DNA of 64,000 nt from Desulfobulbaceae bacterium (GTDB taxonomy: Bacteria; Desulfobacterota; Desulfobulbia; Desulfobulbales; Desulfobulbaceae), in assembly GCA_011389815.1 (NCBI GenBank), contig JAABTP010000007.1, positions 1 to 64,000 of the forward strand. Direction: 5' to 3'. The first letter of the stretch is position 1; each line of letters opens with the position of its first letter. Under the pieces are notes generated by a model. That model saw only the letters and a list, made by a program, of their open reading frames with translations, searched no databases and was not told the DNA's origin. Below are positions 4,747 to 60,218 of the stretch, piece after piece. The position numbers and the translations under genes were made by a program.

Positions 4747-4890
4747 TTATCTTCCGTCCAGTTGAACCCTTTCCTTCTCCCCGGCCAAGGCCAGGTACAC
4801 ATCTACCCTCTTCCGCTCATACCACTTCCCACCCGCCGCAAACAGCTCCTTACTTCGCTCTATCAGGAAATAGAGTACAGGCACCATCAC
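4747..4890 (-). pseudogene. Orphan C-terminal fragment of an RND efflux permease
   Basis: The reading frame encodes VPVLYFLIERSKELFAAGG and continues to a stop, closely matching the last 40-odd residues of the intact RND permease encoded at 7671-10916 (VPVLYFLIERSKELFVAGG). The DNA is also similar, for example the shared run AACAGCTCCTT. Nothing upstream resembles the rest of the permease. It is therefore a copied or left-over 3' end that carries its own stop codon, lying between the convergent TMEM43 and TPM genes. It is not expected to be functional. Confidence 0.85.
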
Positions 4891-4955
4891 CCATATTCTC
4901 ACCTGCTGGTTAAGTATTGAGGGGTGCATGAAAAGAATGGAGATAAACATTGTTC

Positions 4956-7320: not shown

Positions 7321-7606
7321 GTCGGCGGTTTACAACAGCGCATTGCATGCTTACAGTAACCCGTTGTAAACGTGCAGTGACGTATATGAAGCTTACAGTG
7401 AGGCATTGCAGGTCTGCAATGTGACGTTGCAAGCTTACAACAGGCCATGTAAAGCTTACATCAAGGCATTGTAAGCGTACAATGAGGCATTGTATGTTTA
7501 CAACGAGCCAGTGCAAGCTTCATGTGCGGCATGTTAAGCCTGCAACGTGACGTTGTAAGTGTACAACTGGGTATGTGAAGCGTACAGTGCGGCATTGTAC
7601 ATATAA
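7321..7606. repeat. Tandem array of about 13.5 degenerate 21-bp palindromic units
   Basis: Units begin every 21 bases without a single insertion or deletion (7321, 7342, 7363, 7384, 7405, 7426, 7447, 7468, 7489, 7510, 7531, 7552, 7573, 7594). Each unit is a 15-16-bp imperfect palindrome plus a spacer of about five bases, often GAGGC or GTGAC. The unit core is close to RTTGTAAGCKTACAAY. Changes on one arm are often matched on the other: ATTGCAGGTCTGCAAT, ATTGTAAGCGTACAAT and GTTGTAAGTGTACAAC. It fills the gap between lemA and the RND gene. Because 21 is a multiple of 3, long open frames run through it on the minus strand, but they show no known protein. Confidence 0.9.
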
Positions 7607-7670: not shown

Positions 7671-10600
7671 TCAGGGCCTTTCTTTTTCTCCGGAAAGCAC
7701 CCAATACACCTCCAACCTCTTCCGCGCATACCATTCCCCACCAGCCACAAACAGCTCCTTGCTTCGCTCAATCAGGAAATAGAGCACCGGCACCACGACC
7801 AGAGTCAGGAAGGTGGCGACCAGCAGGCCGAAGATCACCACGATAGCCATGGACTGCCACCACTGGCTGGATTCGCTGACCCAGGAAATGCGCAGGTTGC
7901 GGAAGTCGTAGGACACCCCGGTGACCATGGGAATCAGGCCCAGGACTGTAGTTACAGCAGTGAGCAGGACCGGGCGCAGGCGGGTGGCACCAGCAGAGAC
8001 CACGGCCTCAAGCAGGGCAAAGCCGCTTTCCCGCAGCTTATTAGTGTAGTCGATCAACACGATAGCGTTGTTCACCACCACCCCGGCCAAGGAGATCACC
8101 CCGATACCGGTCATGATGACCCCAAAGGGCTGCTTATAGAGCATGAGTCCGAAAAAGGCCCCACCCATGGACAGAATCACTGAAGTCATGATGATAAAAG
8201 GCTGGCTCACCGAGTTGAACTGGGTGACCAGGATCAGGAAGATAAAAAACAGGGCAACAAAAAAGGCTTTGCTCAGGAAGCTCTGGGATTCCTCCTGTTC
8301 CTGATTTTCCCCGGTAAAACGGATGGTATATCCCGGTGGCGGAGGATTCTCAGCCAGGAGTTTTTCAGCTTGCTCACGTACTACAGGCCCTGGAATCTTG
8401 GTTTCATCCACATTAGCCTTGACCGTAATGGTTCGCTGGTTGTTGATCCGGTTGATGTTACCCAGAGAGCCGGTATAATCCACAGTTGCCAAGGTGGACA
8501 AAGGGACAAGGACTCCGCTTGGAGTTGGAATCATGAACTCACGCAACATATTATCATTTTGGCGATACTCTTCCGGCAGCTGGACCGTGATATCATAGTC
8601 CTCATTACCCTCACGAAACGAAGAAATGATCAGGCCGTTATAGGAGGTCTTGATAGCAGAGCCTATGGTATTGGTATTCAGGCCAAACAGGGCTGCCTTT
8701 TTCCGGTCAACCTTGATACGCACTGATGGTGTTCCCTCTACAAAATTATCGCGAATATCTTCGACATGGGGGATTTTTTCCAGAGCAGCCCTGATCTCCT
8801 TGGCAATAGAGGCAAGCACGGCAAAATTATCACCGCTGATTTCAATATTTATCGGCGCACCAGTGGGGGGGCCAGACGCCTCCATGGCCACGGTAACCTT
8901 GGCACCGGCAATATCTTTGATCCGTTTGCGGATATCCTCCACCGTTTCATAGGAGGAGCGGGAGCGGTCTTCCAGATCAAGAAAACGAACCCCCACATGG
9001 TTGGGTGTATTGGGTTCAAACTCGGAACTTCCGCCAGTTGAGGTGACGGCCTTGCTGTAGATAATCTTGACATTTTTCAAATCACTGGGGCCGGGAACGC
9101 CTTCATGGGAGGCTTTTTCTCCTGTCCCTGCCACTGCTGCTTCAATCTGGCGAAGAATACGGTCAATATAATTCAGATCTGCGCCTTCCGGCATATCCGT
9201 GTTCACGTAAATTCCCTTGGGATCAATATCCGGGAAAAATTCCACGGGCTTTTCAATACCAACCACCAGGAGCCAGCCTTGGACCATGAAGATGAGGAGG
9301 AACACGGCAGCGGCAACCAGGGCAAAGGGATGGGCCAGACTGAATCTGAGCAGACCGGCATAGGAGCGCAACAGCGGTCCCCGGATGGTCACTGGTTGTT
9401 CACCGGCTGCTTCTATCTCGGCAGAGGAGACAGTGTCCACTTTTTTGGCACTCTTCATGAACAGCGAGGCCAAGGCCGGATTGATCACCAGGGCCACAAA
9501 AAGACTGGAGGAGAGCGTGATGATCAGGGTCAGAGGTAAGTAGCCCATAAACTCACCCATAATACCGGGCCAGAAGAGCATGGGTGAAAACACAGCCAGG
9601 GTAGTCAGGGTGGAGCCAATCACGGGCATGGCCACCTCTGAGGTGCCCTTCATAGCCGCCTCAACCCGGCCCACGCCTTGCTCCATAAAGCGGTAGATAT
9701 TTTCAATGATGACAATGGCATTATCCACCAGCATACCCAGAGCTAAGGTCAGACTGAACAGGACGATCATATTCAGGGTGATCCCCAAAACATGGAGCAC
9801 CGTGAAGGAGAGCAGCATGGAAAAGGGGATAGCCATACTGACCAGCAGGGCATTGCGGATCCCCATAGCAAAGAAGATGACCACCACCACAAGGGCCAGA
9901 CCGGAGAGGATATTATTCTCCAGATCTGCCACCATATTCTTGGTGTCTTTTGATTTATCCAGAACCTTGGTGATGGCCGTACCGCCAGGCCAGCTTGGCT
10001 GCTTTTTGTGCAGGATGTCTTCCACGGCATCGGCAATGGCAATGATGTTTTCGCCGGAACGCTTCTTGACCACAATATTGACAGCAGGCAGGCCGTTGAG
10101 CCGGGAACGGCTGGTTTCCTCCTTAAAGGTATCCAGCACCCTTGCCACATCACGGGCATAGACCGGTTGACCGTCATGGGTGCCAATGACAAGATCGTAT
10201 AACTCTTCTGGTGTCTTGAATTCGCCAGGCACACGAACCTGGAATTTGCCATCACCCATATGGAGGGCACCGCCCGAGGTGTTGGTGTTTTCACCCCGAA
10301 CAGCAGCCTGCACCGCAGGAAGATTCAGGCCGAAATAGGCCAGTTTTTCCGGGAAAAACTCAATGCGGATCTCCCGCTCCCGTGCCCCGGTGATCTCCAC
10401 ATCCAGTACACCGCTGACACCCTCAATTTCATCTTCCAGATCATCAGCAATCTCTTTGAGACAACGCGCACCGCAGGTTCCGGCCAGAGAAAAAATCAGG
10501 ATGGGCATTTCTGAGATATTGACCTCAAAGACATAGGGATCATCTTCCAGGTCTGTGGGCAGTTCGCCCTTGGCCTCATCCACTTTGTCCTTGACCTTGC

Positions 10601-10916
10601 GCAGGGCATCGTCAATATCCACACCGGTCATGAATTCAACGTCAATCAGGGATTCTCCTTCAGAACTGATAGACTTGACGTTCTTGACGCCATCCAGGCT
10701 CTTGAGTTTATTTTCAATCTCAATGGTGATGGAGCTTTCAATATCACCAGGGGCCACGCCTCGATAGGCCGTGGAGACAAAGATATGGGGGATGCTGACA
10801 TCCGGTTCAGCCTCTCTGGGCAGGATCAGGTAGCTATAGGTTCCTATGACCAGGATAAGGGCAGCCAGTACCAGCACGGATATACTTTTTTTAACGGCAA
10901 GATCGGAGATGATCAT
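7671..10916 (-). CDS. RND-type efflux permease (HAE1/AcrB-like)
   Basis: A 1081-residue inner membrane permease, with the usual RND length and layout: an N-terminal membrane helix, a periplasmic porter loop, six helices, a second loop and five more helices. The proton-relay helix 4 reads GMLVDNAIVIIEN, with one Asp followed by Asn where AcrB has two Asp residues, a known variant. It should export small hydrophobic compounds by proton antiport. It is the third gene of a TetR-MFP-RND operon. No outer membrane channel gene is nearby, so a TolC-type partner must be encoded elsewhere. A near copy of its last 40 codons lies at 4747-4890. Confidence 0.95.
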   Translation of the reverse strand: MIISDLAVKKSISVLVLAALILVIGTYSYLILPREAEPDVSIPHIFVSTAYRGVAPGDIESSITIEIENKLKSLDGVKNVKSISSEGESLIDVEFMTGVDIDDALRKVKDKVDEAKGELPTDLEDDPYVFEVNISEMPILIFSLAGTCGARCLKEIADDLEDEIEGVSGVLDVEITGAREREIRIEFFPEKLAYFGLNLPAVQAAVRGENTNTSGGALHMGDGKFQVRVPGEFKTPEELYDLVIGTHDGQPVYARDVARVLDTFKEETSRSRLNGLPAVNIVVKKRSGENIIAIADAVEDILHKKQPSWPGGTAITKVLDKSKDTKNMVADLENNILSGLALVVVVIFFAMGIRNALLVSMAIPFSMLLSFTVLHVLGITLNMIVLFSLTLALGMLVDNAIVIIENIYRFMEQGVGRVEAAMKGTSEVAMPVIGSTLTTLAVFSPMLFWPGIMGEFMGYLPLTLIITLSSSLFVALVINPALASLFMKSAKKVDTVSSAEIEAAGEQPVTIRGPLLRSYAGLLRFSLAHPFALVAAAVFLLIFMVQGWLLVVGIEKPVEFFPDIDPKGIYVNTDMPEGADLNYIDRILRQIEAAVAGTGEKASHEGVPGPSDLKNVKIIYSKAVTSTGGSSEFEPNTPNHVGVRFLDLEDRSRSSYETVEDIRKRIKDIAGAKVTVAMEASGPPTGAPINIEISGDNFAVLASIAKEIRAALEKIPHVEDIRDNFVEGTPSVRIKVDRKKAALFGLNTNTIGSAIKTSYNGLIISSFREGNEDYDITVQLPEEYRQNDNMLREFMIPTPSGVLVPLSTLATVDYTGSLGNINRINNQRTITVKANVDETKIPGPVVREQAEKLLAENPPPPGYTIRFTGENQEQEESQSFLSKAFFVALFFIFLILVTQFNSVSQPFIIMTSVILSMGGAFFGLMLYKQPFGVIMTGIGVISLAGVVVNNAIVLIDYTNKLRESGFALLEAVVSAGATRLRPVLLTAVTTVLGLIPMVTGVSYDFRNLRISWVSESSQWWQSMAIVVIFGLLVATFLTLVVVPVLYFLIERSKELFVAGGEWYARKRLEVYWVLSGEKERP

Positions 10917-34486: not shown

Positions 34487-34563
<77 letters not shown>

Positions 34564-44164: not shown

Positions 44165-45091
44165 ATGGTCGAAGACCTGCTCAAGGGCTTTGTGCGGGGA
44201 GAATGGGTGGAACAGCTTGACTTCAGTACGCTTGAAAAAGTCAGCGAATCCTATATCAGCGATGACATCCGGGATCGTGAGGATGATATTGTCTGGCGGG
44301 TGCGCTGGGGCAAAAGCTGGATCTACATTTATCTGCTGCTTGAATTTCAATCAACGGTCGATCACTGGATGGGTGTTCGGATGATGACCTATGTTGGGCT
44401 ATTATATCAGGATCTCATAAGAACGGGCAAGCTGACCAAGACCAAAAAATTACCACCAGTTTTCCCGATAGTTCTGTATAATGGAAAGACGTGCTGGAAT
44501 GCAGCCACGGATCTTAATGAACTTGTGGAGGAAATCCCCGGCAGTCTGCGTCGTTATCAGCCTTCCATGTCTTATCTGCTGCTGGCGGAGCACAACTTCC
44601 GGGATCAGGAGCTGCAACCGCTTAAAAATTTGGTTGCCGCCCTTTTTCGACTTGAAATCAGTCAAGAACCGGCTCATCTCGCCGCAGTGGTTGAAAATCT
44701 ACTCGATTGGCTCAAAGAACCGGAACAGGCTTCTTTGCGCCGGGCCTTTACTGTTTGGTTTCATCGGGTACTTTTTGCTGACAAGCCGGTACCGAAAAAA
44801 ATCGGACCATTAAATGAACTGAGTGAGGTACGAGTAATGCTTGCTGAACGTGTACAGGAATGGAAAAAAGAGTGGAAAAAAGAGGCCATCCAAGAAGGAC
44901 TGCGAGAGGGACTTCAAAAAGGACTTCAAAAAGGAAAATTCAGTATGTTGCATCAGCTACTCGAATATAAATTCGGCACCCTTGAAGCAAGAATTGTTGA
45001 GCAACTCCAAGCAGCCAATGATCAACAGCTTGAAGAATGGGGAAAGCGCATCCTGACCGCGACAACACTCAACGATATTTTTGATAACTGA
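44165..45091 (+). CDS. Rpn family PD-(D/E)XK nuclease/transposase-like protein, 5' shortened
   Basis: A 308-residue protein matching the Rpn (YhgA-like) family from its first residue: MVEDLLKGFV, LDFSTLEKVS, DDIRDREDDIVWRVRW and the nuclease segment LLLEFQSTVDHWMGVRM. Typical members begin 15-25 residues earlier with a D..YK.LF motif; here a stop codon lies five codons upstream (44150), so that part is missing. The C-terminal tail has the REGLQKGLQKGK repeats seen in these proteins. Rpn proteins promote RecA-independent recombination. Activity is uncertain given the shortened start. Confidence 0.85.
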   Translation: MVEDLLKGFVRGEWVEQLDFSTLEKVSESYISDDIRDREDDIVWRVRWGKSWIYIYLLLEFQSTVDHWMGVRMMTYVGLLYQDLIRTGKLTKTKKLPPVFPIVLYNGKTCWNAATDLNELVEEIPGSLRRYQPSMSYLLLAEHNFRDQELQPLKNLVAALFRLEISQEPAHLAAVVENLLDWLKEPEQASLRRAFTVWFHRVLFADKPVPKKIGPLNELSEVRVMLAERVQEWKKEWKKEAIQEGLREGLQKGLQKGKFSMLHQLLEYKFGTLEARIVEQLQAANDQQLEEWGKRILTATTLNDIFDN

Positions 45092-45106: not shown

Positions 45107-46063
45107 ATGAATGCACGAAATATCGAACCACTTGACTTCACCGGTCTCAACACCTACTCCGTCCACGACCGCCACTCCAAGGTAACAGTGGAGGATTTCG
45201 CCCGCCCGGTTCATCCCGGCATGACCGTTGCTGAGCTGATCAATGGCCTGCCCAAGCAGTTTGCCGGGGTAGATTTTCCAGAGTTTATTGATCGGATGAT
45301 GACCGCTTTTCATAATGATCGCCCAATCCTTCTGGGCATGGGCGCACACGTCATCAAGGTCGGTCTGAATCCCATCCTCATTGACCTGATGGAGCGAGGA
45401 ATTATTTCGACTATCGCTCTGAACGGAGCAGGCATCATCCACGACACAGAGATTGCTATGGTGGGACGCACCTCCGAGGATGTAGCTGATGTGCTAGGGG
45501 CCGGGGCTTTCGGGGCAGCCAAAGAGACCGGCGAGGTGCTCAACAGGGCCATAAATCAGGGGGCAGAACAAGGCATCGGCTTAGGTGAGGCTGTTGGCAA
45601 CACCCTGCTCCGGGAAGACTTTCCCTTTAACGAGCAGAGCCTTCTGGCCCAGGCCCGACGGCTGAACATCCCTGTGACCGTGCATGTGGCCGTGGGCACA
45701 GATATCATCCATATCCATCCTGATGCTGATGGGGCAGCCATTGGTCAGTGTAGCCATCATGATTTCCGGGTCTTCTGTAGCTTGGTCAGTGAGCTGGAAG
45801 GCGGGGTTTATATGAATGTTGGCTCAGCGGTGCTGCTGCCGGAGGTCTTTCTCAAGGCCCTTACTGTGGTCCGAAATCTGGGCCATGAGGTGAAGCGGTT
45901 CACCACGGCGAATTTTGATTTTATCCGGGCCTATCGACCTGCCACCAATGTGGTGCATCGCCCTACCCTGGAAGGCGGCAAGGGATTCAATTTCACCGGA
46001 CATCATGAGCTAATGATTCCGCTGCTGGCTGCGGCAATTGTGGACAGGCTGGGGGATACTTGA
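45107..46063 (+). CDS. Deoxyhypusine synthase-like protein
   Basis: A 318-residue protein of the deoxyhypusine synthase superfamily: LLGMGAHVIKVGLNPILIDL, ALNGAGIIHDTEIAMVGRTS, VHVAVGTDIIHIHPDADGAA and GHHELMIPLLAAAIVDRLG near the end. Bacterial members may use spermidine in other transfer reactions, and the substrate here is unknown. The last 15 codons and stop are found again, slightly altered, at 47278-47329 and 47672-47711. Confidence 0.88.
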   Translation: MNARNIEPLDFTGLNTYSVHDRHSKVTVEDFARPVHPGMTVAELINGLPKQFAGVDFPEFIDRMMTAFHNDRPILLGMGAHVIKVGLNPILIDLMERGIISTIALNGAGIIHDTEIAMVGRTSEDVADVLGAGAFGAAKETGEVLNRAINQGAEQGIGLGEAVGNTLLREDFPFNEQSLLAQARRLNIPVTVHVAVGTDIIHIHPDADGAAIGQCSHHDFRVFCSLVSELEGGVYMNVGSAVLLPEVFLKALTVVRNLGHEVKRFTTANFDFIRAYRPATNVVHRPTLEGGKGFNFTGHHELMIPLLAAAIVDRLGDT

Positions 46064-46066
46064 TAG
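46015..46066 (+). repeat. Gene-tail repeat, copy 1 (end of the deoxyhypusine synthase-like gene)
   Basis: The 52 bases that start GATTCCGCTGC and end TTGATAG include the real 3' end and stop of the gene. Two related copies lie downstream. Confidence 0.8.
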
Positions 46067-46113
46067 AGTGAGGGATTATTCCAGAAAATAATTTGTTCAG
46101 CAGAGAGTATCCA

Positions 46114-47277
46114 ATGCAGCTCAACGAATTTAAGAGATTGGTAAGAGCAGGCGAAAGTTCGCGCGTTGAGTTTAAAGCATGCGACTTTCATAATGATTCC
46201 TTAGCAAAGGAAATCGTGGCCTTTGCCAATATGAAAGGCGGAAGAATCTATATCGGTGTGCGCGATAATGGAGAGCTTGAAGGCGTTGACCGAAAAATCG
46301 AAGAACGCATTGTTAATATATGCAGAAACAATATTCTTCCCTCAATCATCCCTGATATAGAAACATTACTGATTGAGGACAAACGAATACTCTGCATTCA
46401 TATAGACAGAGGCCGATATAAACCGTATAAGGTAAAAAAAACAAATAAGTTCTACATTCGGGCTGGCTCGGTCTCTATCGAACCGAGTAACGAGGAGCTT
46501 GTACGTTTATTTCAGGACGGCGAGCAGCTCCATTTTGAGGTCTCCCCGGTCTTTCCCTATCAACGCAACCAGTTCGACATACTGCGTTTTCGTGATTATG
46601 TGGAAACCTATCGGGGGATAGACTACGACGAGACAGAACTGGACCGGCTCCTGTACAACCTGCACTGCATTGATGAGGAAAATCGTGTGAGCGTACTTGG
46701 TGCCCTCTTCTTTACCAGAACTCCTTCGCGTTTTCTTCCCCAAAGCGGCATAGAGTGCAACTGTTTCGCCGGACCGGACACTGGCAGCGAGATTACAGAC
46801 TATCAGGCTGAAGATTGCAGCATTGTCGAGTGTATTGAATACGCCATCGGATTCGTCAAGCGACACAGCCGTGTCCAGCTTGCCTTTGATCCGGCGACCG
46901 GGCACAGGAAAGAACTTCCGACCTATGATACAGGCATCGTTCGGGAGCTGATCGTCAATGCCTTTATGCACCGCGACTGGTCGATTTTCGGACAGAGAAT
47001 ACGCCTCAACATCTTTACCGACCGCATGGAGGTGTTTTCTCCGGGCAGCTTGCCGAACACATTAAACTTAACCCGTGCATTATCCGGCATTTCCTATTAC
47101 CGTAATCCGATTATTTCACAGATGCTCAAAGATTACAAAATGGCAGACCGGGTGGGACGCGGATTGCAGAAGGTGGTCAACTATTACCAGGAACGCGGCC
47201 TGCGCCCGCCTGTTTTTGATGTGGATCATGCCTCGTTCAGGGTGACGCTTTGGGAAGCTGGGATGAAGCAGGATTGA
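46114..47277 (+). CDS. AlbA_2 (Schlafen-type) domain protein with ATP-binding C-terminal region
   Basis: A 387-residue protein. The N-terminal AlbA_2 domain has ESSRVEFKACDFHNDSLAKE and IVAFANMKGGRIYIGVRDNG. The middle and C-terminal parts match putative transcriptional regulators with an HATPase-like fold: VRELIVNAFMHRDWSIFGQR, IRLNIFTDRMEVFSPGSLPN and a winged-helix-like end RVGRGLQKVVNYYQERGL. Such proteins occur on mobile and defence islands. The gene sits exactly between two copies of the preceding gene's tail, which suggests insertion. Confidence 0.88.
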   Translation: MQLNEFKRLVRAGESSRVEFKACDFHNDSLAKEIVAFANMKGGRIYIGVRDNGELEGVDRKIEERIVNICRNNILPSIIPDIETLLIEDKRILCIHIDRGRYKPYKVKKTNKFYIRAGSVSIEPSNEELVRLFQDGEQLHFEVSPVFPYQRNQFDILRFRDYVETYRGIDYDETELDRLLYNLHCIDEENRVSVLGALFFTRTPSRFLPQSGIECNCFAGPDTGSEITDYQAEDCSIVECIEYAIGFVKRHSRVQLAFDPATGHRKELPTYDTGIVRELIVNAFMHRDWSIFGQRIRLNIFTDRMEVFSPGSLPNTLNLTRALSGISYYRNPIISQMLKDYKMADRVGRGLQKVVNYYQERGLRPPVFDVDHASFRVTLWEAGMKQD

Positions 47278-47329
47278 GATTCCGCTGCGGACGGCGGCGA
47301 TTGTGGATAAGCTGGCTATGACTGAATAG
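47278..47329 (+). repeat. Gene-tail repeat, copy 2
   Basis: It begins GATTCCGCTGC and reads TAAIVDKLAMTE then stop, against AAAIVDRLGDT then stop in the real gene tail. The two are the same length (52 bases) and most bases match. It starts one base after the stop codon of the AlbA_2 gene. Confidence 0.75.
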
Positions 47330-47349
47330 CATGGCGTGTTAATTGAATC

Positions 47350-47575
47350 TTCTGCCGCTTGCAACGCGCAATCTGCCGCTTGAATCAAGACGATTTCAAT
47401 TGAAATCACCCTGATTCAAATTGAAATTGAGACGATTCAAGTGTAAATCGGGGTGATTTAAGTGTGAATCAAGATGATTTAAACTTAAATTGCTCTGATT
47501 TAAATTTGAATTAAGACGATTTAAGCGTAAAACGGGGCAATTTAAGTGTGAATCGGGGTGATTTACGTGGGTTTT
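47350..47575. repeat. Tandem array of about 10.5 palindromic 21-bp units
   Basis: Units begin at exact 21-base steps (47350, 47371, 47392, 47413, 47434, 47455, 47476, 47497, 47518, 47539, 47560). Each is a 16-base palindrome-like core plus a five-base spacer such as GGGGT, AAGAC or AAGAT. Cores include GATTTCAATTGAAATC (perfect), GATTTAAGTGTGAATC and GATTTAAACTTAAATT. The first two units diverge (both contain TCTGCCGCTTG). The period and design match the array at 7321-7606, though the sequence differs. The array occupies most of the gap between tail copies 2 and 3. Confidence 0.88.
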
Positions 47576-47671
47576 GTGGCAGGCAAAACAGGGTTGGGGC
47601 TGTGGATGGTGTGGCTTTCGTGGCGGATGAGACTGACTGCGGAGCAGAGGCCAGTGAGGTGGCTGCGATGA

Positions 47672-47711
47672 TGGCTGCGGCGGTTGTGGACAGGTTGGGG
47701 GAGCTTTGATA
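47672..47711 (+). repeat. Gene-tail repeat, copy 3
   Basis: It matches the real gene end over TGGCTGCGGC, TTGTGGACAGG, TGGGGGA and TTGATA, and encodes MAAAVVDRLGEL followed by a stop. It lies about 90 bases before the next gene. Confidence 0.7.
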
Positions 47712-47800
47712 TAAGTCAGTTTTTTTGTAATTTTAATTCTATGATAACAAAATGTTGCAAATTCATCTCACAGTGCTGAAAAAAAGTGATGGGTGGCAAG

Positions 47801-48658
47801 ATGTCAACAGTTGAAATTAAATACATCTCAATAAATATCACCCCAGAAGTTGGGGCAAATGATTGGGTAGTCGCTGTACGTGTTGTACCAGCCGGTCGTG
47901 ATGGCACGACAGTTTATGGACGCACCTTAATGCCTGGCGAAGAAGATTCTGGTGTTCCGATAAGTTATAATCCGAGTGCCGGGGAAAAGATTGAATTTCG
48001 TCCGGGTGATCTTAAATTTACTATCTACGATATAGATCGGATAGCAGAGGTCGATTCAAACGGATATGCACCTGTTACATATACTATCCAAACATGGCTG
48101 AAATTTTGCGCACCTGTTGATCAGAATCTCTTCCTTTTTCTTGTTGCCGCTTCTAAGCGTCTTGATACGGCATACTTTGCTTATAGTCAAATTACATCTA
48201 TAGCAAAGGACATATCTGGATCTTTTCCGCACCAGTGCCAGCAGATAATTACGGTTCTTGGACTATCCGAATTTCTCTGCATCGCTCTTAACCGAGCAGT
48301 TAACATGCTTCAACAACTTTCTGGAAATTTTTCAATTAATCTACAATTGCCAAATTCGATAACAGGCAATGTGCAGTCACTTCGAGAAATTCGCAACGCA
48401 TTTGAACATATTGAAGATCGTGCGTTAGGAAAAGTCAGAAATAAAATACATCCTGACGCTTTTACGATATTCGATCAAAAAAAAATATTCACAGAAGGTA
48501 TTTTAACATACGGAAAGCATAGCCTAACCCTCCATACCGACATACTCCAAATGCTCCTTGACGCACGTCAAACCCTACTAAAGATTGCGATCAGTATATC
48601 AGGAGGGGATACAATACCTTTTGATGTCAATCAGATGAACTATTCAAAGCACAAGTAA
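47801..48658 (+). CDS. Unknown protein with HEPN-like RNase motif
   Basis: A protein of about 285 residues. The N-terminal 90 residues look like a small beta domain. The C-terminal half is helical and contains LREIRNAFEHIEDR, with the R-N-x3-H (Rx4H) motif that marks HEPN ribonucleases. The family is not named. The start may be one of three nearby codons; 47801 is preferred. It lies just upstream of, and in a different frame from, the xisH-like gene, with which its end nearly overlaps. Confidence 0.6.
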   Translation: MSTVEIKYISINITPEVGANDWVVAVRVVPAGRDGTTVYGRTLMPGEEDSGVPISYNPSAGEKIEFRPGDLKFTIYDIDRIAEVDSNGYAPVTYTIQTWLKFCAPVDQNLFLFLVAASKRLDTAYFAYSQITSIAKDISGSFPHQCQQIITVLGLSEFLCIALNRAVNMLQQLSGNFSINLQLPNSITGNVQSLREIRNAFEHIEDRALGKVRNKIHPDAFTIFDQKKIFTEGILTYGKHSLTLHTDILQMLLDARQTLLKIAISISGGDTIPFDVNQMNYSKHK

Positions 48659-48666
48659 AGATTGAC

Positions 48667-48966
48667 TTGGGAGCCGAAAAAGTAATTGCTGCGGAAAAAG
48701 GTAACGAAAAAATAGCGATAGAGATTAAGAGCTTTGTCAGGCCCTCGGCTGTTTCCGAGTTTCATGCAGCAGTGGGACAGTATATGAATTACCGGAAGGC
48801 TCTTGGAAAAAGTGAGCCGGATCGTCTGTTATATCTGGCTGTTCCGAAAGAGACGTTCAACTCATTTTTCACCCTCCCGTTTATTTCGGAGTGTATTGCG
48901 GATTACAATCTGAAATTGATAATTTACGACCCTGTAAAGGAGGCTGTGACAGCATGGAAAAAATAG
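48667..48966 (+). CDS. xisH: XisH family nuclease-like protein, N-terminally shortened
   Basis: About 99 residues from a TTG codon. It matches XisH from LGAEKVIAAEKGNEKIAIEI onward, with the ExK motif in AIEIKSF, GQYMNYRKAL and DRLLYLAVPKE. XisH proteins are normally about 138 residues; the first 35-40 are missing, and the frame is closed by a TGA at 48622. The Asp that pairs with ExK is just upstream of the TTG (KIDLGAEK). The gene may be a remnant, or translated from an unusual start. It overlaps xisI. Confidence 0.8.
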   Translation: MGAEKVIAAEKGNEKIAIEIKSFVRPSAVSEFHAAVGQYMNYRKALGKSEPDRLLYLAVPKETFNSFFTLPFISECIADYNLKLIIYDPVKEAVTAWKK

Positions 48967-49298
48967 ACCGTTACCGGCAGTATATCAAAGAGGTAATCGC
49001 CCGCCACAGCATTCCCTCATCATACGGCGATGCCGAAGTGCAGCAAATTTTTGATACGGAACGCGACCACTATCAGCTTGTCCATACAGGCTGGTTCGAG
49101 CTGGAACGTATGTACGGCTGTATTGCCCATCTAGATATAAAAGACGGTAGAATATGGATACAGTACGACGGCACTGAAACCGGCATTGCCGATGAATTAG
49201 CAGAACTTGGCGTTCCCAAAGAGGATATAATCTTAGCCTATCATCCGCCGTACAAGAGACCGTACTCAGGATTCGGGCCGGATAAACAGAAAAAATGA
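48954..49298 (+). CDS. xisI: XisI family protein
   Basis: A 114-residue protein with the XisI pattern throughout: MEKIDRYRQYIKEVIARH, DTERDHYQLVHTGWFELERM, RIWIQYDGTETGIADEL and a C-terminal DIILAYHPPYKRPYS. AAGGAGG precedes the start, which overlaps xisH by 13 bases. XisH and XisI were named from excision of the fdxN element in Anabaena; most copies elsewhere sit as unexplained gene pairs. Confidence 0.93.
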   Translation: MEKIDRYRQYIKEVIARHSIPSSYGDAEVQQIFDTERDHYQLVHTGWFELERMYGCIAHLDIKDGRIWIQYDGTETGIADELAELGVPKEDIILAYHPPYKRPYSGFGPDKQKK

Positions 49299-49655: not shown

Positions 49656-50333
49656 ATGACTCAAACAAAACAAACTCGCGGTGCATGCGCCTTCTGCGGT
49701 CGTAAGATGACCGGAAACGGCATGGTGAAACATCTATCCGCCTGCCCCAAACGCAAAGATACCTTAAGCGAAAACGACCAGAAAACCGGTAAAAAACAGA
49801 AAATCTATCATCTCAAAGTCCAAGACGCTTGGCTGAACGACTTTTGGCTCCACCTGGAGATATGCGGTTCAGCAATCTTAAAGGATCTGGACAGCTATTT
49901 GCGATCAATCTGGCTGGAATGTTGCGGCCACCTGAGCCAATTTTCCGTTGGAGGCTGGAAAGGCGAAGAAATCGCAATGGATACCAATGTCCAGTCCATC
50001 TTTCGCCCTGGCCTGATACTGACCCATATCTATGATTTTGGAGAGTCTTCAGAAACGCAAATCAAAGTCGTCTCCGAACGCGAAGGCACGCCCATGACCG
50101 AGCACCCGATCTACTTAATGGCCCGTAACGAGCTGCCGGAAGTGGCGACCTGCACCTGCGGCAAATCCGGTGCCTGGTTATGCCTGGACTGCGCAGAGCA
50201 AGATGATGAAGTTGCCCTCTTGTGCGATAAACATGCCAAGGACGAGCACCAGGATCACGCCCTGATGCCCATCCTCAATTCACCGAGAACCGGACGGTGT
50301 GGCTACAGCGGCCCTGCGGAACCTCCGTATTAA
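49656..50333 (+). CDS. pRiA4b ORF-3-like protein with zinc-finger motifs
   Basis: A 225-residue protein. A C2HC-type finger opens it (CAFCGRKMTGNGMVKHLSAC). The middle (DAWLNDFWLHLEICGSAILK, then DLDSYLRSIWLECCGHLSQF and LILTHIYDFGESSETQIKVV) matches the plasmid pRiA4b ORF-3-like family. A second Cys/His cluster ends it (CTCGKSGAWLCLDC). The role is unknown. Its stop overlaps the nitroreductase start by one base. Confidence 0.75.
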   Translation: MTQTKQTRGACAFCGRKMTGNGMVKHLSACPKRKDTLSENDQKTGKKQKIYHLKVQDAWLNDFWLHLEICGSAILKDLDSYLRSIWLECCGHLSQFSVGGWKGEEIAMDTNVQSIFRPGLILTHIYDFGESSETQIKVVSEREGTPMTEHPIYLMARNELPEVATCTCGKSGAWLCLDCAEQDDEVALLCDKHAKDEHQDHALMPILNSPRTGRCGYSGPAEPPY

Positions 50334-59495: not shown

Positions 59496-60161
59496 CTATT
59501 TTTCCAATAAGGTATCATACTGCAACAGTTCAATCCTTTTGCCTTTGACCCTGATCAGCCCTTCTTTTGTCATTTTGGAAAAAATCCTGGACAGCGTCTC
59601 AGGACTGGTTCCTAACAGGCTTGCGAGTTGTCCTTTGGGGATATCAAGTGTTACTTGTGTGGTGTTTTTTTGTTCCTCAGTCAGATAAATCAGATGGGCA
59701 GCTAAGCGGGCTGGTACCTCTTTTAAGGACAGGCTTTCTATCTGGGCGGCGAAGCGGCGCAAGCGCATGGAGAGGACCGCCAGCATGGAAAGGGCCAAAG
59801 ATGGGGTGCTATTGATCAGGTCAATGAAGCCTTGCCTGGGAAAAAAAAGCATGGTTGAAGGTTCAATGCTGATGGCATTGGCTGGAAATGGGGTACCATG
59901 AAAAACCGGGACTTCGCCAAAGGGTTCGCCAGGGCCAAAGATGTGAAGAATCTGTTCTTTGCCGTCCAGTGACATTTTATAAATTTTTACCCTGCCTTGC
60001 CCGACCATATAAAACCCGGTTGCCTTATCTCCTTCAAAAAAAATTGACTCACCCTGGTGGAATTTTTTTGCTGATGCCAGCTCAGCAATTTGGTCAAGAA
60101 GGGATGGGGAAAGTCCTTTGAAAAGGATTGATTCAGCAAGGAGTTGTTTTTTATTGAGCAC
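59496..60161 (-). CDS. hcpR: Crp/Fnr family regulator, probable HcpR
   Basis: A 221-residue regulator with a cNMP-type sensor (FHQGESIFFEGDKATGFYMV) and a Crp helix-turn-helix (PKGQLASLLGTSPETLSRIF). It has no Cys at all, so it is not an Fe-S FNR. Divergent position to hcp and an FNR-like site in between match HcpR, which controls hcp in sulfate reducers and can sense NO through haem. That identity is inferred. The start is a GTG, and a 25-bp tandem duplication covers the start region. Confidence 0.85.
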   Translation of the reverse strand: MLNKKQLLAESILFKGLSPSLLDQIAELASAKKFHQGESIFFEGDKATGFYMVGQGRVKIYKMSLDGKEQILHIFGPGEPFGEVPVFHGTPFPANAISIEPSTMLFFPRQGFIDLINSTPSLALSMLAVLSMRLRRFAAQIESLSLKEVPARLAAHLIYLTEEQKNTTQVTLDIPKGQLASLLGTSPETLSRIFSKMTKEGLIRVKGKRIELLQYDTLLEK

Positions 60162-60202
60162 AGTGGTCTCTTTTTTTATTGAGCACAGTGGTCTCTTTTT
60201 TT
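60153..60202. repeat. 25-bp exact tandem duplication over the regulator start
   Basis: Two identical 25-base units lie at 60153-60177 and 60178-60202, each with GAGCACAGTGGTCTC followed by seven T. On the minus strand the unit includes AAAGAGA and the GTG CTC AAT start. The upstream start copy is in a different frame and soon meets a stop. Confidence 0.9.
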
Positions 60203-60218
60203 ATTTCGCCATAGAAAA

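Follow-up and report, generated by a model that had tools for sequence, protein, structure and literature searches.

We found that a conserved gene in the cable bacterium Candidatus Electrothrix carries at its 3′ end a stack of unrelated cassettes separated by displaced copies of that gene's own tail. In the window, the 64,000-nucleotide stretch of DNA analysed here, the order is gene with tail A, AlbA_2 gene, tail B, 21-bp array, tail C and native flank. Since the old tails are cut at variable points and no recombinase was recognised in the scanned cargo, we favour homology-anchored sequential displacement as the process that probably built this stack. Donor DNA from a relative would bring the 3′ end of the target gene fused to cargo, such as AlbA_2, an array or a PIN toxin. 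At one end, homologous recombination would occur within the final few tens to few hundred bases of the resident gene, which would stay intact and acquire the donor's tail end; at the other, the position of the join within the resident tail would vary, and the join would be either illegitimate or the closed junction of a circle entering by a single crossover. The old tail and all that lies behind it would shift downstream, and repetition would yield a stack with the latest insert closest to the gene. We infer that host homologous or illegitimate recombination is the agent and that the incoming DNA is linear or circular. The features of the locus are as follows.

44165..45091, + strand: gene for an Rpn-type nuclease (PF04754), adjacent to the target gene on its upstream side (Pfam/NCBIfam)
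45107..46063, + strand: target gene, GSU2086-family, deoxyhypusine-synthase-like, 318 aa (NCBIfam NF052581)
46015..46065, + strand: tail A, the present gene end (repeat comparison; end shared with G002)
46114..47277, + strand: cargo 1, SLFN_AlbA_2 + HATPase_c_4 (RecG-C-terminal-like) protein, 387 aa (Pfam)
47278..47328, + strand: tail B, an old tail now displaced, with its cut near −49 and an Electronema-type tail end (CTGAATA)
47329..47380, + strand: leader from tail B to the array, conserved in Electronema-type loci (75–80% to L090–L093)
47381..47565, + strand: cargo 2, 21-bp tandem array with 84-bp higher order (TRF)
47566..47665, + strand: trailer after the array, 67% to L090 over 92 columns
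47666..47711, + strand: tail C, oldest displaced tail, whose 3′ flank is the native downstream flank
47786..48658, + strand: ORF of 290 aa, no family found in Pfam and NCBIfam searches
48667..49298, + strand: XisH + XisI pair behind tail C (Pfam PF08814, PF08869)
49656..50333, + strand: conserved next gene, native side of the hotspot (synteny)

The target gene matches NF052581 with 447 bits (cut-off 250) and deoxyhypusine synthase models weakly; it gave no Pfam match at 1e-3 and was matched in 32 of the 37 genomes searched. The XisH behind tail C is missing its first 39 profile positions, and the gene at 49656..50333 is syntenic in G000–G004, G006 and G007. A remnant of the Rpn-type nuclease gene is present in G002; this gene has the family name Transposase_31, yet lies outside the tail-bounded units. 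A tRNA-type target was rejected, the only tRNA in the window being a tRNA-Met far off at 34487–34563.

Two copies of the last ~40–50 bp of the target gene lie behind it in the same orientation. The initial annotation had placed them to within a few bases, and a repeat family, BLAST and a weight matrix all recover them. In repeat family D2 (reference 46020–46065), the copies are 47283–47328 (72%) and 47666–47711 (83%). A BLAST search of the gene end against its own 4.0-Mb genome gave 47666–47711 with E=9.4e-7 and 47278–47315 with E=4.0e-5 as the only matches with E<0.05; the next in rank of 11 matches has E=0.076, and both copies are therefore unique to the locus. In a first BLAST survey, 6 of 80 loci gave a tail copy, but 13 of 320 control segments were matched as well, and only G006, G002 and the window were clearly beyond controls. 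For this reason we added the weight-matrix test, with a matrix built from 9 gene tails that excluded the window's own. The window copies scored 46.2 and 30.5 bits, whereas the highest score among 60 resampled sequences was 8.1, the control being first-order resampling and not exact dinucleotide shuffles. The best match exceeded all shuffles in 7 of 18 loci, L094 being excluded for its short downstream stretch; L091 was not above shuffles, its score being reached by 5 of 60, and the matrix detected no tail copy in G001, G003, G007 or any of the 7 outgroup loci. Tail copies stand behind cargo at the target gene in three further Electrothrix genomes, and a copy is clear in 3 of 4 Electronema-type loci. 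Chance similarity or Ala/Leu-rich coding, raised as an alternative at the outset, is extremely improbable as a source of these copies: apart from the shortness of the window copies (38–46 bp) we found nothing in its support, and we rejected it on DNA-level uniqueness in 4 Mb, weight-matrix scores far beyond shuffles and the presence of copies in relatives.

Related genomes retain the target gene both before and after insertion. A search for the gene without an insert, as had been suggested, found it in E. aarhusensis (G003), which has an uninserted gene end with a single tail and native flank; the long direct repeats are not in this allele. The native tail end or flank of G003 recurs on the outermost copies in the window, in G006, in G002 and in G004; for tail C, the 3′ flank matches both the gene end of E. 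aarhusensis and the copy in G006. In the Electronema-type loci L090–L093, the gene tail, leader and array are directly joined, with the array at the same position as in the window, where it lies about 52 bp after the first copy and 100 bp before the second; TRF places the 21-bp array in the second interval (47381–47565), as annotated. Tail B, leader and array start of the window match L046 at 78% over 118 bp, and in the window the AlbA_2 gene and a new tail sit between the gene body and this old tail-array unit. The end of tail A and ~25 bp of 3′ flank are common to the window and G002, which also bears AlbA_2 here. The target gene is intact with an altered tail end in G000, G002, G004 and G006, so that the suggested restoration of the gene at each insertion is borne out: a new tail end is supplied and the old tail displaced. 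The homologous junction lies on the gene side, in frame and intact, and the old-tail side is cut at variable points; the old 3′ end and its old downstream cargo are kept behind the new insert at two loci. Repeated segmental duplication, the other initial suggestion, finds no support, as the tail alone is doubled and what separates the tails is unrelated cargo, which in other species lies directly behind the gene; whole-gene duplication with decay was rejected because only the tail is copied and the cargo differs. These states could also be read as a stack that arose once, long ago, was merely moved by homologous recombination and differs through loss and decay. The array unit and tail copy are taken as old because they are common to Electronema-type loci and the window, and G003, G007 and G001 are without copies. 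However, cargo orders differ, AlbA_2 identity far exceeds gene identity and the before/after pairs require repeated insertion, and we regard a single ancient stack as very unlikely.

The AlbA_2 gene starts at 46114 (or at 46093 with TTG), 50 (or 29) bases past the target gene stop. Its nucleotide identity is 90.4% to G006 and 90.3% to G002, where the target gene reaches 81.6 and 81.3% (Fisher p 6e-9 and 3.5e-9); between genomes the ranges are 90.3–95.2% and 81.3–85.5%. Identity above that of the target gene indicates that AlbA_2 moved horizontally. In the window, the first tail copy adjoins the AlbA_2 stop codon (TGA ends 47277), as annotated; in G006 the abutment does not hold, 13 bases of other sequence separating the two. 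A search for the same insert without tail copies, run for AlbA_2, found a tail copy or remnant directly behind it in all three genomes with AlbA_2 at the target gene, although that at L080 (G002) gave no flanking repeat by BLAST and is visible by direct comparison only. AlbA_2 was rejected as the moving enzyme, since its distant relatives at L081–L085 (n=5) have no flanking repeats.

A second gene in the window, encoding an RND pump, has a copied tail.

4768..4891, − strand: copy of the RND gene tail, covering −130..−6 at 80%, behind the array and LemA and TPM genes
7389..7599, no strand assigned: 21-bp array directly behind the RND gene end, 71 bp from it (TRF)
7671..10916, − strand: AcrB-type RND pump gene, second tail-copied gene in the window (Pfam ACR_tran; tail copy from the screen)

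For this gene we observe a before/after pair with PIN/VapBC cassettes, the window's own genome included. The gene tail is joined directly to PIN-B in G006, G004 and G007; in G002 the order is gene, VapBC, old tail (from −50) and a PIN-B fragment, and in G000 gene, PIN-A, old tail (from −157), PIN-B and a third tail. The displaced tail end and PIN-B start of G002 are identical to the G006 gene end at 106 of 107 positions, as against 37 of 97 for G002's own RND gene end; the tail end moves together with its cargo as a single unit, and not with the genome. The old RND tail is cut at about −157, −137, −201 and −50. The RND tail copies fit a wholly recipient-derived displaced tail; the G006 copy at the target gene is foreign-like in its 5′ part.

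Compared with its sister G003, the G006 gene has 76/80 matches before about −40 and 45/65 after, and the tail copy 64/80 before and 59/65 after. This contrast of gene and copy would be a reciprocal switch, located in both products within one short interval (−40..−15); for the copy alone, the 5′ and 3′ parts do not differ significantly in their match to G003 (p=0.1). The gene end and copy end agree at 9/15 and 12/25 positions, and the copy agrees with the sister species at 15/15 and 20/25. About 80 bases in the 5′ part of the copy look like foreign gene tail. Insertion with long target duplication, in which a staggered recipient break is filled in and recipient sequence doubled around the insert, would produce single cargo genes between long, variable direct repeats, as seen here, and a restriction-modification pair is inserted at the target gene in G001 (with no tail copy detectable by weight matrix) and toxin-antitoxin genes at the RND gene. 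It predicts recipient copies that are initially identical, whereas the G006 gene end and copy end differ, the copy matches the sister species, and RND tail ends are each linked to their own cargo across genomes; this mosaic and these cargo-linked ends contradict a recipient origin of both repeats, and make target duplication unlikely.

Site-specific integration at an attachment core in the tail, with a recombinase acting in trans on units that are non-autonomous, integrase-less islands, would explain why the gene is restored at every insertion, why the latest insert is always closest to the gene and why the G006 switch is confined to −40..−15 in both products. At the target gene, the old tail is cut at −49, −44, −120, −109 and about −55; several copies begin at about −38 to −49, consistent with a core, and others at −109 and −120. 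This spread (−44 to −120, and −50 to −201 at the RND gene) argues against a core, as do the ~80 foreign-looking bases of the G006 copy upstream of any core and the occurrence of the same pattern at unrelated genes with no common tail sequence seen by eye. In line with the initial annotation, the cargo proteins scanned include no recognisable integrase; a Pfam scan of them, with the small ORFs covered in part, gave no tyrosine or serine recombinase and no DDE transposase. Given the clearly different cut points, an integrase-like mode with a fixed core is not supported, and we consider site-specific integration rather unlikely. Sequential displacement has its own difficulties. The G006 switch fits a single crossover (of a circle or site-specific) better than one-ended insertion, a core site would likewise give copies starting at about −38 to −49, and many events would be needed, yet homology-facilitated illegitimate recombination has low published rates (PMC5361080). 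The G001 insert with no detectable tail copy, the number of gene-head fragments in the screen described below and the native tail at the TerB-DnaJ locus also count against it.

Several known systems resemble these stacks in part. Islands of the integrase type occupy hotspots at the 3′ ends of tRNA or protein genes, which they restore between direct repeats. The cable-bacterium loci share the restored 3′ end, direct repeats and hotspot; they differ in having no recognised integrase, apparently no constant core and units as small as 0.4–1.3 kb. In integron cassette arrays, the latest cassette lies closest to a fixed anchor and older ones are shifted back. The cable-bacterium stacks have the same order; however, no integrase was found among the scanned cargo, and the "site" is part of the anchor gene itself and differs from gene to gene, the repeats being locus-specific gene tails and apparently not attC sites. 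For Vibrio cholerae T6SS effector-immunity arrays, homology-facilitated illegitimate recombination, the same kind of model, has been proposed, with C-terminal displacement in Rhs/CDI loci named alongside, in PMC5361080. There too, by that account, a module enters a gene's 3′ end with homology on one side, and the old 3′ end and downstream gene are kept as an array with no integrase. In the T6SS case so described, the tail is a variable toxin domain and selection retains immunity genes, whereas in the cable-bacterium loci a housekeeping or transport gene keeps a conserved tail and an essentially unchanged product, and the cargo is unrelated (AlbA_2, 21-bp array, PIN/VapBC). Insertion of H. pylori restriction-modification genes with long target duplication (Nobusato et al. 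2000, as cited in PMC1643837, PMC3031569, PMC4978471 and PMC2749054) likewise involves, in these citing accounts, single accessory genes and long variable direct repeats with no transposase or integrase; here, the repeats are donor/recipient mosaics, stacked, and always at a gene 3′ end in resolved cases. The E. coli H47 genomic island is described in PMC5426353 as mobile, with direct repeats, no recombinase of its own and RecA-independent excision; H47 is, on that description, a single island with short repeats and assayed excision, whereas at the cable-bacterium loci insertion is inferred. Accessory and defence-type genes can pile up in order behind core genes with no recognised integrase, transposase or phage, and both before and after states survive in living species. 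Gene-tail scars offer a cheap general way to find such insertions in any group of related genomes, and they would help account for hotspots that have no mobile-element genes.

More tentatively, and with considerable doubt, cable bacteria, which have been called unculturable (PMC10926707), might hold a genome-wide, integrase-free analogue of the integron. Any conserved gene 3′ end would address cassettes carrying a copy of it, each gene would have its own defence, toxin-antitoxin or array stack, and tail-to-tail exchange between species, by circles or uptake, would possibly be RecA-independent and aided by Rpn-type nucleases. We screened gene ends of 997 Electrothrix ORFs (1.2 of the 4.85 Mb of G006, plus the window), not counting as copies any matches that were homologous at the protein level over 80 residues or 40% of gene length, which were taken as paralogues. 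Fragment-only copies of tails numbered 8 downstream and 1 upstream, those of heads 8 and 7, and those of gene middles 1 and 0. Heads (15) are at least as common as tails (9), so fragment duplication in Electrothrix is not limited to tails; what is tail-specific is the side bias alone (8 downstream, 1 upstream). Two other genomes (666 ORFs) gave 3 tail copies downstream and 0 upstream, and the difference between genera in tail copies is therefore weak; their heads numbered 1 downstream and 3 upstream, their middles 0 and 1, and all three tail matches were ORFs under 150 aa. In G006, the TerB-DnaJ locus has a native gene tail and flank, and a tail swap was not seen there. The array was rejected as a general cause of tail copies by a direct-repeat check of 30 array-match loci, many of them overlapping and from fewer arrays, in which only the window's own locus and L069 have direct repeats within 500 bp. 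Of 22 genomes, 5 have related arrays at other loci; all 5 are Electrothrix, and that of the window is among them.

As the initial annotation had described, the target gene is followed by copies of its own 3′ end; this gene is a deoxyhypusine synthase-related member of the GSU2086 family. Its last ~45 bp (tail A) are found again on the same strand at 47278-47315 (tail B) and 47666-47711 (tail C), and a search of the whole 4.0-Mb draft genome of the host (G000, Candidatus Electrothrix, a genus of cable bacteria) with the gene end returned no other match with E<0.05. The tail-bounded stretch carries a gene and a tandem array as accessory DNA, or cargo.

44165-45091, + strand: nuclease gene of the Rpn type (PF04754), immediately upstream of the target gene
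45107-46063, + strand: target gene, GSU2086 family (family profile match)
46114-47277: AlbA_2/RecG-C-terminal-like gene, within the tail-bounded stretch
47381-47565: tandem array of a 21-bp unit, within the tail-bounded stretch

The AlbA_2 protein matches the PADLOC models pAgo (6e-19) and Aga_SIR2 (8e-9); AlbA_2/HATPase-like parts held in common presumably account for these matches.

We collected the locus from 6 other Electrothrix genomes, 3 family members and 80 GTDB loci, and scored 18 loci for tail copies using a weight matrix of gene tails, the own tail left out, against resampled sequence. A tail copy scored far above resampled sequence in the window (2 copies), in three other Electrothrix genomes (G002, G004 and G006), and in Ca. 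Electronema sp. KV (L090), Ca. Electronema aureum (L092) and Desulfobulbus sp. F5 (L093), with a weak copy at the equivalent position in S01.Bin068 (L091); none was detected in G001 (Ca. E. gigas), G003 (Ca. E. aarhusensis), G007 or 7 outgroup loci. All four Electronema-type loci have the same order: gene tail, a directly joined conserved leader, a 21-bp array, and a tail copy. Since tail B, leader and array start in the window follow this order and match the S01.Bin068 genome (fetched as L046) at 78% over 118 bp, the tail-array-tail unit is old and common to the sister group, and the AlbA_2 gene was inserted later between gene body and old tail. In Ca. E. gigas (G001:C161, L044), an N6_N4 methylase and an EcoO109I-type restriction gene lie directly behind the orthologous gene at the equivalent site, with no tail copy detectable by weight matrix.

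The AlbA_2 gene lies directly behind the target gene in 3 genomes, each with a different right-hand neighbor: in the window, tail B and the array; in G002, a decayed remnant of the tail with large-protein cargo behind it; and in G006, a 120-bp tail copy followed by native flank. Identities among these genomes are 90.4, 90.3 and 95.2% for AlbA_2 and 81.6, 81.3 and 85.5% for the target gene. The outermost copies (window tail C, G006, G002 and G004) end like the uninserted E. aarhusensis gene, TTTGATATA(A)GTCAG, with at most 1 base of difference, so the newest inserts lie closest to the gene and the oldest tail lies farthest out. Upstream of AlbA_2 and behind the gene tail, G002 (L040) has a 28-bp near-perfect, REP/MITE-like palindrome (GTAGGGGCACGGCACGCCGTGCCCCTAC) that the window and G006 lack at this place.

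Tail copies are also found at other genes. A screen that took the final 120 bases of each of 997 ORFs, drawn from the window and 1.2 Mb of G006, yielded 8 genes with a tail-only copy downstream, one of them encoding an RND pump. PIN-B, a PIN toxin unit, directly adjoins the tail of this gene in G006, G004 and G007. G002 has a VapBC pair and a new tail end ahead of the old tail (from -50, counted in bases before the gene end) with a PIN-B fragment. On contig C154 of the window's own genome, the gene is followed by a different PIN gene, then by the old tail (from -157) with PIN-B, and lastly by a third tail (from -137). The displaced tail end and PIN-B start of G002 are identical to the gene end and PIN-B start of G006 at 106/107 positions, versus 37/97 for G002's own RND gene end, indicating that tail end and cargo form one block and that new blocks are inserted where the gene body meets the old tail. 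The RND locus is a second example, independent of the target gene. A third is inside the window:

7671-10916, − strand: AcrB-type gene, followed by an array, the LemA and TPM genes, and then a tail copy
4768-4891: tail copy of the AcrB-type gene

At G006:C1:108929-114500 (L171), a TerB-DnaJ gene is followed by a 137-aa ORF, an 867-aa P-loop protein and an 86% tail copy; the segment after this copy is 93% identical to one behind the TerB-DnaJ gene in G000, the gene itself 82%.

The screen gave no fewer head fragments than tail fragments, which means that gene fragments are numerous in Electrothrix genomes; what is specific to tails is the downstream bias (8 vs 1) together with the two well-resolved loci. 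Two other family members gave 3 tail-only matches in 666 ORFs, all 3 in ORFs <150 aa, numbers too low for the pattern to be regarded as specific to Electrothrix.

The points at which old tails are cut are scattered, at -50, -137, -157 and -201 for the RND gene and at -44, -49, about -55, -109 and -120 for the target gene. In contrast, the gene-side junction keeps the reading frame in every case. Among cargo proteins scanned by Pfam, no recombinase was recognized. Together these features are the mark of an insertion with one homologous and one illegitimate junction or, alternatively, of a single crossover involving a circle whose point of closure is arbitrary. On the mechanism, PMC3240628 concerns E. 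coli conjugation. The G006 gene is native up to about -40, where it matches sister species E. aarhusensis at 76/80 positions, and non-native beyond (45/65); its tail copy matches at 64/80 and 59/65, with several donor and recipient assignments resting on this one species. In each segment the gene and the copy match E. aarhusensis to different degrees (p=0.007 and p=0.004); the copy's own before/after contrast is not significant (p=0.1). A single crossover between a resident and a donor-borne tail leaves just such a reciprocal switch.

The Rpn-type gene is present in the window and as a remnant in G002, and was not seen at the remaining Electrothrix loci in the comparison. According to PMC5350276, overexpressed E. 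coli Rpn proteins increase RecA-independent recombination, and in PMC10327210 Rpn proteins are also described as anti-phage toxin-antitoxin systems. As a lead only, this neighbor may be linked to the insertions through RecA-independent recombination.

The portions consulted of two cable-bacterium genome papers (PMC10926707, PMC10030654) mention IS-type repeats and gene transfer and not tail-bounded stacks, and no description of such stacks was found in the literature searched, with most subscription literature outside reach. We therefore file them as a new form of homology-anchored sequential displacement, one that takes place at conserved housekeeping and transport genes and carries defense-type, toxin-antitoxin and array cargo.

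The window has two intergenic arrays of 21-bp period and near-palindromic units (7389-7599 and 47381-47565), each standing behind the end of a gene with a tail copy downstream. A search with the second array gave matches in G000, G001, G002, G004 and G007, and none in G003, G005, G006 or 14 genomes of other genera. Another 21-bp array (L069, G000:C139) has a 36-bp direct repeat (92%) 445-480 bp upstream and 241-276 bp downstream. The hotspot is adjoined by a XisH/XisI pair (48667-49298), XisH without the first 39 profile positions, in a host that is a filamentous bacterium; a XisI-like ORF, judged by eye, occupies the equivalent place in E. aarhusensis. These family names come from the excision of a cyanobacterial element. 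A 25-bp unit is present in 2.4 perfect copies at 60147-60205.
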